From Fontimonas thermophila (GTDB lineage: Bacteria; Pseudomonadota; Gammaproteobacteria; Nevskiales; Nevskiaceae), in NCBI RefSeq assembly GCF_900113085.1, contig NZ_FOOC01000002.1:248001-312000 (forward strand): a stretch of 64,000 nt of DNA. Direction: 5' to 3'. Of the stretch, positions 9,540-52,248 are shown in pieces. The position numbers were made by a program, and so were the translations under genes. Positions within the stretch are counted from its first letter, which is position 1; every line of letters begins with the position of its first letter. The notes under the pieces were generated by a model. That model searched no databases, was not told the DNA's origin, and was given only the letters and a program-made list of their open reading frames with translations.

Positions 9540-9650
<111 letters not shown>

Positions 9651-35284: not shown

Positions 35285-35369
35285 GCCCACGTGGTGGAAT
35301 TGGTAGACACGCTACCTTGAGGTGGTAGTGGCGAAAGCCGTGGGAGTTCGAGTCTCTCCGTGGGCACCA
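35285..35369 (+). tRNA. leuU: tRNA-Leu(GAG)
   Basis: An 85-nt class II tRNA with encoded CCA. The acceptor GCCCACG pairs with CGTGGGC; the anticodon stem CTACC/GGTAG encloses the loop TTGAGGT, giving anticodon GAG (reads CUC/CUU); a variable arm and the T-loop TTCGAGT are present. It corresponds to E. coli leuU, which also follows secG. Confidence 0.96.
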
Positions 35370-35495: not shown

Positions 35496-35572
35496 TGCGG
35501 GGTGGAGCAGTCTGGCAGCTCGTCGGGCTCATAACCCGAAGGTCGCAGGTTCAAATCCTGCCCCCGCTACCA
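35496..35572 (+). tRNA. metY: Initiator tRNA-fMet(CAT)
   Basis: A 77-nt tRNA with encoded CCA. The anticodon loop is CTCATAA with anticodon CAT, flanked by the three G-C pairs (GGG/CCC) that mark initiators. Position 1 is T and position 72 is also T, so the end pair is a U-U mismatch: it keeps the initiator lack of pairing but differs from the usual C1-A72. The location before rimP-nusA-infB is that of E. coli metY. Confidence 0.96.
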
Positions 35573-42202: not shown

Positions 42203-44311
42203 ATGGGTATTCCAGCCACACCGGCAACCCCGATCCGCAAGACATTCCAGTACGGCAACCGCAAGGTCACGTTCGAAACCGGCGCGATCGCGCGCCAGGC
42301 GACCGCCGCGGTCATGGTGACGATGGATGAGACCGTCGTGCTCGTCACCGTCGTTGCCAAGAAAGACGCCAAGCCCGAGCAGGACTTCTTCCCGCTCACG
42401 GTTGATTACATGGAGAAGTTCTACGCCGGCGGGCGCGTACCCGGCGGCTTTTTCAAGCGCGAAGGGCGGCCCACCGAGAAAGAGACGCTCACTTCACGCC
42501 TGATCGACCGTCCGATCCGCCCGCTGTTCCCGGACGGTTTTTACAACGAAGTGCAAATCGTCGCGACGGTGATGTCGCTCAACCCCGAAGTCGATGGCGA
42601 CATCCCGGCGATGCTCGGCGCCTCAGCGGCGCTCGCCCTCTCGGGCGTGCCGTTCATGGGGCCGATCGGCGCCGCCAAGGTCGGATACAAGAACGGTCAC
42701 TATATCCTCAATCCAACCGAGAGCGAGCTTGAAACCTCGGAGCTCGATCTCGTCGTTGCGGGCACCGAGAACGCCGTGTTGATGGTCGAATCCGAGGCCA
42801 AGATGCTGCCGGAGCCCGTCATGCTCGGCGCCGTCATGTTCGGCCATGAGCAGATGCAGGCTGCGATCCAGGCGATCAAGGAATTCGCCGCCGAGGCCGG
42901 CAAGCCGAAATGGGAGTGGAAAGCGCCGGATCGCAGCGCGGTCAAGGCCTTCGTCGCGGCTTACGAAAGCGCCATCGCAGAGGCTTACACGATCACCGAG
43001 AAACAGGCGCGCTATGCCCGTCTCGGCGAGATTCGCGCGCAGGCCATCGCCGCACGTCCCGCCGATGCGCCATTCACCGAGAATCAGCTCAAGGCCGAAC
43101 TGCACGAACTCGAAGCCAAGGTCGTCCGCAACCGCATCCTCGACGGACATCCGCGCATCGATGGCCGCGACCGCACGACGGTCCGCCCGCTCGCGATGTC
43201 CACCGGCACGTTGCCGCGTGCTCATGGCTCGGCGCTGTTCACACGCGGGGAGACGCAGGTCATCGCGGTGACAACCCTGGGTACCGGCAAGGATTACCAG
43301 ATCATCGACGCCATCGACGGCGAGTGGCATGAGCATTTCCTCTTCCATTACAACTTCCCGCCGTACTGTGTCGGTGAGACCGGTCGCCTCAATGCACCCA
43401 AGCGGCGTGAGATCGGTCATGGCCGTCTGGCCAAGCGCGGCGTCGCCGCGGTGATGCCCGATCTTGAAAAGGAATTCCCGTACGTCGTGCGCGTGGTCTC
43501 GGAAGTCACCGAATCCAACGGTTCCTCTTCGATGGCCTCGGTCTGTGGTGCCTGTCTCGCACTGATGGACGCAGGCGTTCCGCTCAAGGCGCCGGTCGCC
43601 GGCGTCGCGATGGGGCTGATTCTCGAGGGCGATCGCTGGGCCGTGCTCACGGATATCCTCGGCGACGAGGATCACCTCGGCGACATGGATTTCAAGGTCG
43701 CGGGTACCGAGGACGGCGTCACCGCGCTGCAGATGGATATCAAGGTCGCTGGTATCACCGCCGAAATCATGGCGCAGGCCTTGACGCAGGCCAAAGCCGC
43801 GCGCTTGCACATCCTCGCGCAGATGAAACAAGTCCTGCCCAAGCCGCGCGAGCAGCTATCGCCGTTTGCCCCACGCATCACGACCATCAAGATCAATCCC
43901 GACAAAATCCGTGAAGTCATCGGCAAGGGCGGCGCGACGATCCAGTCGATCACCAAGGAAACAGGGACGACGATCGATATCGAAGATGACGGCACCATCA
44001 AGATCGCTGCCGTCGATGGCAGGGCCGCAGAAGCGGCGATCGCCCGGATCATGGCCCTCACGCGCGAGGTCGAAGTAGGCGCGGTCTATGAAGGCAAGGT
44101 GGCCAAGATCATGGATTTCGGCGCTTTCGTCACGATCGCTCCGGGCAAGGACGGGCTCGTCCACATCTCACAACTCGCCGACAAGCGTGTTGAGAAAGTC
44201 GAGGATGTGGTCAAGGAAGGCCAGACCGTGAAAGTCAAAGTCCTGGAAGTCAGCCGCGATGGCAAGATCCGCCTGTCGATGAAGGCGGTGGACATCGGCA
44301 TCGGGGGCTGA
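42203..44311 (+). CDS. pnp: Polyribonucleotide nucleotidyltransferase (PNPase)
   Basis: A 702-residue phosphorolytic 3'-5' exoribonuclease and degradosome component. Two RNase PH-like domains (the second with the [16 protein letters not shown] active-site region), then KH ([15 protein letters not shown]) and S1 ([14 protein letters not shown]) RNA-binding domains at the C-terminus. The leader of about 150 nt after the rpsO hairpin has no evident gene. PNPase in E. coli autoregulates its own leader and protects or degrades sRNAs; a predicted sRNA gene lies just downstream on the other strand. Confidence 0.97.
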
Positions 44312-44420: not shown

Positions 44421-44462
44421 CCTTTATGGGGAGATCGGGGGGCTGCGCAGCGATGCGCGGGC

Positions 44463-44589
44463 AAAAAAAGAACCCCCGGTAAGACCGGTGGCAAGGTGCG
44501 AGAAAGGCGCGGGGGCCTTTCTGGAGGAGACTGATTGGACCCGGTCACGCCACCCGGCATGGCCGGGTTTTTTGTGTCCGTGTCATGTT
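44463..44589 (-). ncRNA. Predicted small RNA with C-rich loop (about 127 nt)
   Basis: No long or gene-like reading frame lies here, but on the minus strand a near-consensus promoter (44597-44625) is followed by ordered structure. First is a 7-bp hairpin ACCCGGC/GCCGGGT, then an unpaired CUCCUCC (44521-44531 region), then hairpin AGAAAGG/CCUUUCU with the exposed loop CCCCCGCG (44501-44522). Last is a hairpin CCGGU/ACCGG running into U7 (44463-44469) as an intrinsic terminator. GGUGGC near the first hairpin can also pair with GCCACC near the end. C-rich loops and anti-SD-like CUCC stretches are the hallmark of sRNAs that bind ribosome-binding sites, such as sX13 of Xanthomonas. I claim analogy only, not homology. 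Ends are estimates. Confidence 0.6.
44552..44573 (+). terminator. Intrinsic terminator (plus strand) within the sRNA locus
   Basis: ACCCGGC-ATG-GCCGGGT, a 7-bp stem followed by T6. On the plus strand it is a classic terminator that would stop read-through from pnp; on the minus strand the same stem is the 5' hairpin of the predicted small RNA. Confidence 0.8.
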
Positions 44590-44596
44590 GCGGTGC

Positions 44597-44625
44597 AGTA
44601 TAAGCTTGACTGACGGTGTTGTCAA
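44597..44625 (-). promoter_or_regulatory. Near-consensus sigma-70 promoter of the small RNA
   Basis: Read on the minus strand: a perfect TTGACA (44625-44620), a 17-bp spacer, then TATACT (44602-44597). It is the best promoter match I found in the window. An AT-rich block (44640-44671) lies upstream, where an UP element could act. No gene start follows it. Confidence 0.8.
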
Positions 44626-44730
44626 GATGCAGACCCGTCAAAAAAATTAAATTAGACAATAATTTATATTGATCGAATCGCGTTTCGTGACGCAGTCGTC
44701 ATCAATTCCGGCGGCATTGCCGTCGCCACG

Positions 44731-45249
44731 TCAGTCGCGGGCGGGCGGTCTGGGCGGGCCATCCTCGATACCCGCACGTCGCTTGATCGATTTGGCCTTC
44801 GAGGAAAGATTGCGCAGGAACTCGGCCCGCACCGAGCGCCAGATGGGAACCTGGCGTTCGGCCAGTTCCTTGAGCGCCTGGATCGGTTGCTGCGCCTGGC
44901 CGAGCAGTTCCCTGAGCTGGTCGGCAAAGTGATGCTGCTGTTCCTGGAACAACTGTGCCGACAGTTCCAGGTAGCGGCCGATGCTGTTCTGCATCGGATC
45001 GCCGTAATAGCGGATGATGAAGCGCAGCAAGTCCGTGGTGAAAATAGGATTGCCGCCTTCCTCCTGCTCGGCGATCACCTGCAACAGGATGCTGCGCGTG
45101 ATGTCCTCGTGCGTGCGCTTGTCTTCGACGCGGAAAGGAATGTTCTGCAACACCAGCTGACGGATCTCTTCCAGCGTGATGTAGCGGCTGATGTGGGTAT
45201 CGTACAGACGCCGGTTCGGGTACTTCTTGATGATGCGTGGTTCGGACAT
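44731..45249 (-). CDS. phaR: Polyhydroxyalkanoate synthesis repressor PhaR
   Basis: A 172-residue regulator of PHA storage. The N-terminal domain (IIKKYPNRRLYDTHISRYITLEEIRQLVLQ) is the PHB accumulation regulator DNA-binding domain; a second domain (FTTDLLRFIIRYYGDPMQNSIGRYLE) and a basic tail follow. PhaR binds both PHA granules and promoters of phasin genes, derepressing them when polymer is present. No pha genes are in the window. The start (MSEPRI) has AAGG upstream; the frame is open further but less typical. It follows gluQ on the same strand with a 47-bp gap, and the predicted sRNA promoter lies downstream of it. Confidence 0.93.
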   Translation of the reverse strand: MSEPRIIKKYPNRRLYDTHISRYITLEEIRQLVLQNIPFRVEDKRTHEDITRSILLQVIAEQEEGGNPIFTTDLLRFIIRYYGDPMQNSIGRYLELSAQLFQEQQHHFADQLRELLGQAQQPIQALKELAERQVPIWRSVRAEFLRNLSSKAKSIKRRAGIEDGPPRPPARD

Positions 45250-45296
45250 AAGACCTTCATTCGACTGGTTTGTTGCAGTGCGGTTGCTGCAGGGCA

Positions 45297-50685: not shown

Positions 50686-52248
50686 ATGCACGCGGCGGCA
50701 CGCATCCTCAGCATCGACGTCGGAACCCAGAGCGCGCGTGCGATCGTGTTCGACGCATCCGGCCAGCTCCTCGGCAAAGCGCAACGGGTGTTCGACCCGG
50801 CCTATGTCGCGCCTCAGCCAGGCTGGGCGGAACAGGATCCGGCGATGTACTGGAATGCGGTCGTCGAATGCTGCCAGTCGCTGTGGCGCGATACCGGGAT
50901 CCGGCCTCATCAGATCACTGCACTGACGCTCACGACACAACGTGCGACGATGGTCTGTGTCGATCAGGCCGGGTGCATCCTGCGCCCGGCCATCGTCTGG
51001 CTCGACCAGCGGCGGTGCACCGCACCGCCGCCGTTGCCGATGTTCTGGCGTGCGGCTTTTCATGTCGTCGGGGCAACGCCATTGATCGCCCATCTGCAGC
51101 GCGAGGCTGAAGCCAACTGGCTGGCCCAGCACGAGCCAGCACTGTGGCAGAAAACTGCCCGTTTTTTGTTTCTGTCTGGCTGGCTTAGTCACCGGCTGGT
51201 CGGCGATTACGTCGATTCCACTGGGTGCCAGGTTGGCTTCGTGCCTTTCGATTACAGGCGTCTGGACTGGGCACGGCCGGGCGATTTCCGGTGGCACGCG
51301 CTGGCGGTGCGCCGCGAACAACTGCCGCGCCTGGTGCGTCCCGGCGAACGCCTGGGCACGCTCACCGCAACGGCCGCCGACGCGCTGGGTCTGCCCATGG
51401 GCATCCCAGTGATTGCCGCGGCCGCAGACAAGGCATGCGAGGTGCTGGGCTGCGGCGTGCTCGCCCCCGACGCGGCCCAGCTCAGTTTTGGAACCACCGC
51501 GACGATCAACACGACGCAGACGCGTTACGTGGAAGTGCAGCGCCTGCTGCCACCGTACCCGGCCGCCGTTCCTGGTGCCTGGAACACCGAAATCCAGATT
51601 TACCGGGGCTTTTGGATGGTGTCCTGGTTCAAGCGCGAGTTCGCACACCGTGAGCAAACGCTCGCGGCCCAGCGTGGGATCGCGCCCGAGCAATTGTTCG
51701 ACGAACTGGTCCGCAGCGTGCCGCCGGGATCGATGGGTTTGATGCTGCAACCCTACTGGTCGCCGGGCGTGCGCGATCCGGGTCCGGAAGCCAAGGGTGC
51801 GGTGATCGGCTTTGGTGACGTGCACACCCGCGCGCACTTCTACCGCGCCATCCTCGAGGGACTGGTCTATGGCCTGCGCAGCGGACGCGAGCAGATCGAG
51901 CGGCGCATCGGCCGACGCATCACACGGCTATGCGTCGCTGGCGGCGGATCGCAGTCGGATGTTGCGATGCAGATCACTGCCGATGTCTTCAATCTGCCGG
52001 CGGACCGCCCGCAGGTCTATGAAACTTCCGCGCTGGGCGCGGCGATCAACGCCGCCGTGGGTCTGGGCCTATATCCGGACTATGCAACGGCGATTCGCGC
52101 CATGACCCGCATCGAACGACGGTTCGAACCCGATCCGGGAGCGGTGCGCCTGTATGACGCACTGTATCGCGAGGTCTACCAGCACATGTACCGCCAGCTC
52201 AAGCCGCTCTACACGCGCATCCGCGCCATTACCGGCTATCCGCCGTGA
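50686..52248 (+). CDS. FGGY-family carbohydrate kinase
   Basis: A 520-residue ASKHA kinase. ILSIDVGTQSARAIVFDASG is the N-terminal phosphate-1 motif, VWLDQR carries a substrate-contact Asp, and SFGTTATINTTQ plus the C-terminal CVAGGGSQSDVAMQITADVFNLP form the adenine-binding half with the FGGY signature region. It resembles xylulokinase/glycerol-kinase relatives but is not a canonical GlpK, so the substrate (glycerol, a tetritol or a pentulose) is open. The ATG at 50686 (MHAAARIL) is preceded by GGAAAG; it lies 19 bp after the GlpD-like gene and ends the unit. Confidence 0.86.
   Translation: MHAAARILSIDVGTQSARAIVFDASGQLLGKAQRVFDPAYVAPQPGWAEQDPAMYWNAVVECCQSLWRDTGIRPHQITALTLTTQRATMVCVDQAGCILRPAIVWLDQRRCTAPPPLPMFWRAAFHVVGATPLIAHLQREAEANWLAQHEPALWQKTARFLFLSGWLSHRLVGDYVDSTGCQVGFVPFDYRRLDWARPGDFRWHALAVRREQLPRLVRPGERLGTLTATAADALGLPMGIPVIAAAADKACEVLGCGVLAPDAAQLSFGTTATINTTQTRYVEVQRLLPPYPAAVPGAWNTEIQIYRGFWMVSWFKREFAHREQTLAAQRGIAPEQLFDELVRSVPPGSMGLMLQPYWSPGVRDPGPEAKGAVIGFGDVHTRAHFYRAILEGLVYGLRSGREQIERRIGRRITRLCVAGGGSQSDVAMQITADVFNLPADRPQVYETSALGAAINAAVGLGLYPDYATAIRAMTRIERRFEPDPGAVRLYDALYREVYQHMYRQLKPLYTRIRAITGYPP

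Follow-up and report, generated by a model that had tools for sequence, protein, structure and literature searches.

The phaR-pnp intergenic region

We analysed a stretch of 64 kb from Fontimonas thermophila, hereafter the window, in which a predicted small RNA (sRNA) gene lies on the minus strand between phaR, which is upstream of it on the same strand, and the convergent gene pnp. The features of the locus are listed here in the order in which the minus strand is read.

45271-45283, minus strand: operator-like CCGCACTGCAACA, 21 nt before the likely phaR start (motif scan)
44731-45249, minus strand: phaR, PHA synthesis repressor (PF07879; TIGR01848, E 1.1e-42)
44620-44625, minus strand: -35 box TTGACA (promoter scoring)
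44597-44602, minus strand: -10 box TATACT, spacer of 17 nt (promoter scoring)
44586-44598, minus strand: PhaR-operator-like palindrome CTGCACCGCAACA, overlapping the -10 end and the start site
44463-44590, minus strand: predicted sRNA transcript of about 127 nt (promoter plus terminator, homologues)
44552-44568, no strand assigned: 5' hairpin ACCCGGC-CAT-GCCGGGT (terminator prediction)
44523-44531, minus strand: anti-Shine-Dalgarno seed GTCTCCTCC; CTCCTCC in 116 of 121 distinct cores
44501-44522, minus strand: H2 hairpin AGAAAGGC/GCCTTTCT with loop CCCCGC (conserved)
44492-44500, minus strand: second conserved stretch, between the hairpins, CGCACCTTG (core alignment)
44463-44491, minus strand: intrinsic terminator hairpin and U7 (terminator prediction)
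42203-44311, plus strand: pnp, convergent with the sRNA (RNase_PH, KH and S1 domains)

The promoter, TTGACA-17-TATACT at 44625-44597 of the minus strand, matches the consensus at 11 of 12 positions and is the single site on either strand of the 64 kb that combines TTGAC, a 17-nt spacer and at least 11 of 12 matches. No gene-sized ORF with a ribosome site was found downstream, which confirms the near-consensus promoter without a gene described in the original prediction. A small-ORF reading of the transcript, MTRTQKTRPCRVA, has no ribosome site and the other ORFs are open-ended, so that a coding role is unsupported. With a start at about 44590 and a U-run that stops at 44463, the proposed span of about 127 nt with its hairpins and U7 stands as a sequence prediction, and domain matches bear out the placement of the gene beside pnp and phaR. 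The likely true start of phaR is the ATG at 45249 (MSEPRII...).

From 5' to 3' the window copy consists of a first hairpin, CUCCUCC, H2, the terminator hairpin and U7. H2 is AGAAAGGC-CCCCGC-GCCUUUCU; a second hairpin had been foreseen at this place, but with 7 bp and an exposed CCCCCGCG instead of the 8 bp and 6-nt loop that the sequence gives. Both the first hairpin and the CUCCUCC that was thought to be unpaired are present in the sequence, but in the lowest-energy fold this hairpin gives way to a longer 5' stem, and the GUCU ahead of CCUCC pairs with the 5' part of the sRNA. On the plus strand the 5' hairpin is an intrinsic terminator (T6; 44552-44574) facing pnp, and this part of the sRNA differs between relatives. 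The fold as a whole is mildly unusual (z -1.84; 11 of 200 shuffles equally stable), a value insufficient by itself as proof of an sRNA, and the case therefore rests on comparison and conservation.

A Nevskiales sRNA family with a conserved seed

In a DNA search, 59 of 61 genomes, among them that of the window, matched the sRNA at E<=1. A covariance model built from 48 cores placed the sRNA core, at E<=1e-4, in 80 of the order's 85 genomes, in 126 copies: one per genome in 47, two in 24, three in 7 and five in 2. Most copies (81/126, from 68 of the 80 genomes) follow a match to the PhaR DNA-binding domain on the same strand at a distance of 424-2647 nt, and 45 are located away from phaR. Among 30 named PhaR loci, which include those of Solimonas, Sinimarinibacterium, Nevskia, Stagnimonas and Hydrocarboniphaga, 25 have an sRNA match, and in all 25 a convergent pnp lies behind the sRNA. 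Three Solimonas loci (L032, L033 and L039) have phaR and pnp, and neither the DNA profile nor the seed pattern found an sRNA there, but the RNA model does find a diverged copy for L032 (G002:C1:137722); in L050 and L060 neither sRNA nor pnp was found within the stretch examined. PhaR is present in four (G035, G054, G059 and G441) of the five order genomes without a core match. In a sample of the class the core occurs in 11 of 369 genomes (E<=1e-3), so the family extends to some other Gammaproteobacteria, not to most; PhaR occurs in 109 of the 369 and in 5 of the 11 that bear the core. A second, divergent copy (C19:203792-203863, E 9.8e-4; L099 1793-1864, minus strand) lies in the window's genome behind an ORF that we take to be GyrB-like; its seed is the same, but its H2 stem differs entirely. 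At 2.73 Mb the window's genome is reduced compared with the 3.2-4.7 Mb of ten congeners, and it retains phaR, one phasin and the two sRNA copies.

The copies yield 121 distinct cores: the order contributes 112, genomes outside it 8, and the second copy in the window's genome the remaining one. The conserved seed is mostly (G/A)UCUCCUCC, and the stretch that follows H2 is kept as GCAC(C/T)T in 106 of the 121. Directly after the seed, 119 of 121 cores have a perfect stem of 7 bp or more, compared with 46 of 6050 shuffles; the search model already contained the stem, and its presence is thus favoured by the way in which the copies were found. The paired changes in H2 are unaffected by this: the stem occurs in 18 versions, among them AGAAAGGC/GCCTTTCT, AGGAAGGC/GCCTTCCT, AGATCCC/GGGATCT and GTCCCGGG/CCCGGGAT, and of 306 arm swaps between versions, 17 pair. 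The compensatory base changes in aligned relatives that a structured RNA had been expected to show are thus present. In predicted folds of the 98 copies given a start, the seed is mostly unpaired, with a mean of 0.77 compared with 0.04 for the left arm of H2; in the window copy, where the first seed bases can pair with the 5' part, the seed is less unpaired.

Two further proposals did not survive the comparison. The C-rich loop, thought to be the active element, takes its window form in a single one of the 126 copies; what the family conserves is CUCCUCC. C-rich loops of other forms are present in L142, L091 and L092. A long-range switch between GGUGGC and GCCACC is not conserved, GCCACC being found in 1 of the 108 cores aligned (13 of the 121 were omitted, some of them divergent low-scoring copies). 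The central claim of an independent sRNA of the trans-acting type is backed by order-wide conservation, the covarying hairpin and the conserved promoter. By sequence comparison, the window element is a member of a Nevskiales sRNA family first described here; among the matches listed in open-licence literature on Nevskiales and on PhaR with sRNAs there was no report of such a family, and no open-licence paper on Solimonas small RNAs was found.

An operator-like palindrome at the sRNA start site

What might control this promoter? Directly 3' of the -10 box stands TGCACCGCAACA, and the palindrome TGCACYGCAACA at the sRNA start site is conserved amid variable surroundings. Across 88 promoters picked for TTGAC and TANNNT alone, the operator columns average 1.66 bits, compared with 0.35 in the -35/-10 spacer and 0.34 in the 20 downstream columns, a comparison restricted to these columns because those of the -35 and -10 boxes are conserved by construction. 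In PhaR-bearing genomes, TGCNNNGCA lies at most 2 nt from the -10 end in 83 of the 88 copies with a recognised promoter, compared with 0 of 3 in the order's PhaR-less genomes. The 123 copies of PhaR-bearing genomes thus include 5 with a recognised promoter and no palindrome, and 35 without a recognised TTGAC promoter; some of these 35 show the palindrome, but many copies away from phaR do not.

The PhaR consensus of R. eutropha is YTKNTGCRNYGCANMAR (PMC12849132), and the window palindrome contains its core, TGCRNYGCA. The window operator agrees with 11 of the 14 informative positions, which fits the rule of the consensus source allowing up to 3 mismatches (PMC12849132) and is a score common by chance in 200 nt. 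When the 17-base consensus was run over the 200 nt upstream of each copy, scores of at least 12 were reached in 63 of 126 copies and 119 of 2520 shuffles, and a score of 11 in 36 of 126 copies and 566 of 2520 shuffles. This scoring separated copies from shuffles partly, and a positional test and an architecture search were used instead. The case for the window operator rests on core, position and conservation, in copies that share ancestry. Upstream of the second own copy, TTGTTGCGGCGCAACAG agrees by eye with 14 of 14 informative positions, a score reached once in 2520 shuffled upstream regions of the other sRNA copies.

In genus g17 the palindrome is present in 7 of 10 PhaR-bearing sRNA genomes and absent from G055, G056 and G060. 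In three further g17 genomes (G044, G047 and G447) phaR was not detected, and the sRNA is kept behind a shared promoter without the operator, a loss that is possibly one evolutionary event; these genomes are a natural experiment in which the sRNA survives without a detected phaR. Outside the order, G097 has PhaR, the sRNA, the palindrome and, by eye, a pnp-like ORF, and in G197, G309, G404 (two copies) and G073 the core stands behind a promoter without the palindrome and PhaR was not detected; stray TGCNNNGCA sites occur 218 nt upstream in G197 and 177 nt upstream in G073. The sRNA is thus not strictly tied to PhaR, but to judge from the sequences, order genomes that have both usually have an operator-like site in the sRNA promoter. 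The importance attached at the outset to the neighbours therefore divides: phaR, through this site, is probably more than a neighbour and a likely regulator of the sRNA, and for pnp synteny is the one test that gave a signal.

Shared architecture with phasin genes

The pattern TTGACN17-19TANNNTGCNNNGCA has 47 matches in 25 genomes, compared with 1 for the reversed pattern. They comprise 26 sRNA copies (16 assigned by sequence and 10 by coordinates against the covariance-model copies), 15 sites before phasin-like ORFs, 11 of which match Pfam Phasin_2 at E<=1e-3, and 6 others. In the window's genome the architecture was found exactly twice, at the phasin (PF09361) and at the window sRNA, and the single PhaR-less genome among the 25 had no match. 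PhaR of R. eutropha acts as a repressor of the phasin gene phaP1 and becomes sequestered on granules as these form; its footprinted site around the phaP1 start site was read as repression by steric hindrance (PMC12849132).

A different arrangement occurs in family f117, where a small helical ORF rich in Ala and Lys (L095, L096), with a phasin-type double-operator promoter, precedes the core by 93-109 nt. G171, in which PhaR is present, has the core 109 nt after such an ORF with its double operator, and no palindrome within the 250 nt before the core, which suggests from sequence a 3'-end route to the sRNA. G287 has the same arrangement, and PhaR was not detected in this 88%-complete genome. 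The L095 ORF has no Pfam phasin match; the L095/L096 ORF could possibly be a new phasin-like protein with a 3'-end sRNA.

Relation to known RNA families

At the gathering threshold, Rfam recognises the SRP RNA and two tRNA genes in the 64-kb window (9548-9644, 35285-35366 and 35496-35569, all on the plus strand) and no family at the sRNA; a weak plus-strand anti-hemB match was taken as chance. A scan of 31 sRNA-bearing loci, with a repeat on 5, gave whole-model sub-threshold matches on the sRNA of 20.7-28.0 bits against thresholds of 41-50 (E 0.03-0.94): RF02278 with up to 28.0 bits (L095; threshold 50) in 5 of 31 loci, anti-hemB RF02837 with up to 27.2 bits (49.5) in 4, with one match on the opposite strand, ncS54 RF02871 with up to 23.6 bits (43) in 3, and mmgR RF00519 with up to 26.9 bits (gathering threshold 41) in 2. 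The window copy matched neither RF02278 nor mmgR. Since these scores fail, the sRNA is not assigned to any of the four families; the matches are singly at chance level, and together they seem to point to the same kind of molecule. For RF02278, ncS54 and anti-hemB, the model-length matches on the sRNA strand start at (U)GUCUCC in some relatives.

The closest functional analogue is MmgR/alpha-r8 (Sinorhizobium MmgR and Caulobacter SisA-D; RF00519). In S. meliloti, PhaR (AniA) represses MmgR, which lowers phasins and PHB (PMC12542648, PMC8401924), and Caulobacter SisA-D carry an anti-Shine-Dalgarno 10-mer, and SisA represses a TonB-dependent receptor gene (PMC12559287). MmgR/alpha-r8 RNAs are connected with PHB and, for SisA, with the uptake of nutrients (PMC12542648, PMC12559287, PMC8401924). 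Shared with MmgR is the PhaR-type site in the promoter, a property of MmgR and not of every alpha-r8 RNA, and for Nevskiales a reading of the sequence; shared with the group are a single-stranded anti-Shine-Dalgarno motif and several sibling copies in some species. Unlike the alphaproteobacterial alpha-r8 RNAs, in which the 10-mer UUUCCUCCCU follows a weak hairpin (PMC12559287), the Nevskiales sRNA has UCUCCUCC before a strong hairpin, plus CGCACCUU, and its seed, mostly (G/A)UCUCCUCC, does not match the 10-mer.

The closest structural analogues are the Burkholderia double-hairpin sRNAs (RF02278, ncS03/05/27/62), which have double hairpins, an unpaired CU-rich stretch and several homologous copies per genome and of which NcS27 tunes carbon-source use (PMC5688073, PMC10987360). 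The sRNA core has this architecture, a CU-rich unpaired stretch and two hairpins, the last a terminator. A further property of RF02278 is that the cloned RNA inhibits growth of E. coli. A term search of the main text of PMC5688073 and PMC5760752 found no mention of PhaR, and the likeness may reflect either remote homology or convergence.

PhaR and the proposed role of the sRNA

How might PhaR and the sRNA act together? From a gene family with a conserved seed, a covarying hairpin and an operator-like site shared with phasin genes, all established by comparison of the sequences, we infer transcription of the element, PhaR binding and the direction of control, blocking of ribosome sites, and the targets. 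When PHA is absent, PhaR on the palindrome over the start site would shut the sRNA promoter, as at the phasin promoter. Once PHA granules form, PhaR would be drawn onto them and the sRNA would be made together with phasin. The RNA would present UCUCCUCC in front of a stiff hairpin and pair with Shine-Dalgarno sites of the GGAGGAGA type, blocking translation of selected mRNAs, probably those of uptake and catabolic genes, and metabolism would be matched to the storage state. We regard as probable this reading of a PhaR-controlled trans-acting sRNA that is released with PHA and masks G/A-rich ribosome sites. By analogy with MmgR, the sRNA should be released on PHA accumulation and should mask GGAGGAGA-type sites. 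An Hfq gene is present in the window's genome.

No conserved target was established by seed duplexes or by a scan of 11 genomes. Phasin was rejected for now, its seed duplex of -10.2 kcal/mol comparing with a median of -11.2 for 47 likely window genes, and the duplex at the likely phaR start reaches -4.0. The scan with TGGAGGAGAN3-9ATG gave 72 matches; the comparison site TAAGGAGGT gave 3 in the same 11 genomes, which is no fair background. Many of the 63 loci examined are apparently within coding regions, among them recurring matches that we take to be SpoVR-like and LeuA-like. Recurring families with start-like N-termini, recognised by eye and without a background rate, are a secreted-protein pair (L249/L273), a lipoprotein-like trio (L250/L303/L307) and receptor-like proteins (L270/L271/L299). 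The best candidate target in the window's genome, from sequence pairing, is an AMP-binding acyl-CoA ligase (PF00501), with 10 complementary bases and -22.8 kcal/mol; the strongest duplex among the 47 window genes, -19.9, is weaker. Of the 10 relatives of this ligase in the genus, 6 were examined and all 6 keep GAGGAGA, but these genomes may simply use it as their usual ribosome site.

Could the locus instead be a bidirectional terminator and spacer DNA between convergent genes? The convergence of phaR and pnp, the 5' hairpin as a plus-strand terminator and the weak single-sequence fold would fit, but such DNA would not be expected to have a conserved promoter, a near-invariant seed and a covarying hairpin, nor 45 of 126 copies away from phaR, and we think this very improbable. 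An sX13-type sRNA acting through C-rich loops, as first supposed, is slightly less credible still. Pairing of C-rich sequence with G-rich start regions would be common to both RNAs, and the window's CCCCGC loop and those of L142, L091 and L092 recall sX13; in the window form, however, the loop is that of a single copy, the element conserved in the family lies outside it, and sX13 is reported from Xanthomonadaceae only, always downstream of polA and with C-rich apical loops (PMC3771888), unlike the Nevskiales sRNA at phaR/pnp.

The two remaining alternatives accept the sRNA, and each is unlikely. The sRNA may be real, but what is conserved downstream of the -10 box may be a feature of initiation or of the 5' end, or the site of a different regulator, with phaR only a stable neighbour. 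The genomes outside the order that keep the sRNA and a TTGAC-type promoter without palindrome or detected PhaR speak for this, as do the three PhaR-bearing g17 genomes without the palindrome. Against it, phasin-like promoters, known PhaR targets elsewhere, bear the same architecture order-wide, the palindrome core equals the published PhaR core, and the palindrome is absent from the order's three PhaR-less sRNA genomes, maybe through one evolutionary event. A little less likely than this is that the RNA mainly titrates Hfq or another sRNA, as a sponge or protein-binding decoy, instead of blocking ribosome sites. The conserved C/U-rich stretches and U-tail would suit such a role, the Caulobacter sponge CrfA pairs with anti-Shine-Dalgarno sRNAs (PMC12559287), and the target scan of 11 genomes gave no convincing conserved mRNA target; but the seed reads as the reverse complement of strong Shine-Dalgarno sites, and it is near-invariant while the stem drifts.

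Wider implications

The proposed PhaR-controlled sRNA suggests that coupling of PHA storage to translation through such an anti-Shine-Dalgarno sRNA, known from one rhizobial case, also arose or persisted in Gammaproteobacteria. For Nevskiales, in which no described sRNA was found, it is a candidate regulator with a named controller and stored PHA as its input; if true, it would offer a handle for tuning PHA yield and would account for phaR and the intergenic sRNA gene remaining together. A broader and more doubtful view, which we offer tentatively, is of a proteobacteria-wide RNA arm of PHA sensing, in which titration of PhaR frees phasins and an anti-Shine-Dalgarno sRNA that lowers uptake and catabolism, the Nevskiales family, MmgR/alpha-r8 and the Burkholderia double-hairpin sRNAs being branches or repeated inventions. 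Here such a circuit would reach the sRNA in two ways, through a promoter of its own that bears the phasin operator and through placement 3' of a phasin-like gene.

Two minor observations concern sites and copies elsewhere. An exact CTGCATCGCAACA lies at 51960-51972 of the window (minus strand), without a recognised promoter, near a kinase-like ORF, presumably of the FGGY type. G426 and G427 (L173-L181) have five sRNA copies each, at phaR and dispersed, some with other promoters, and a split of regulation among them is possible.
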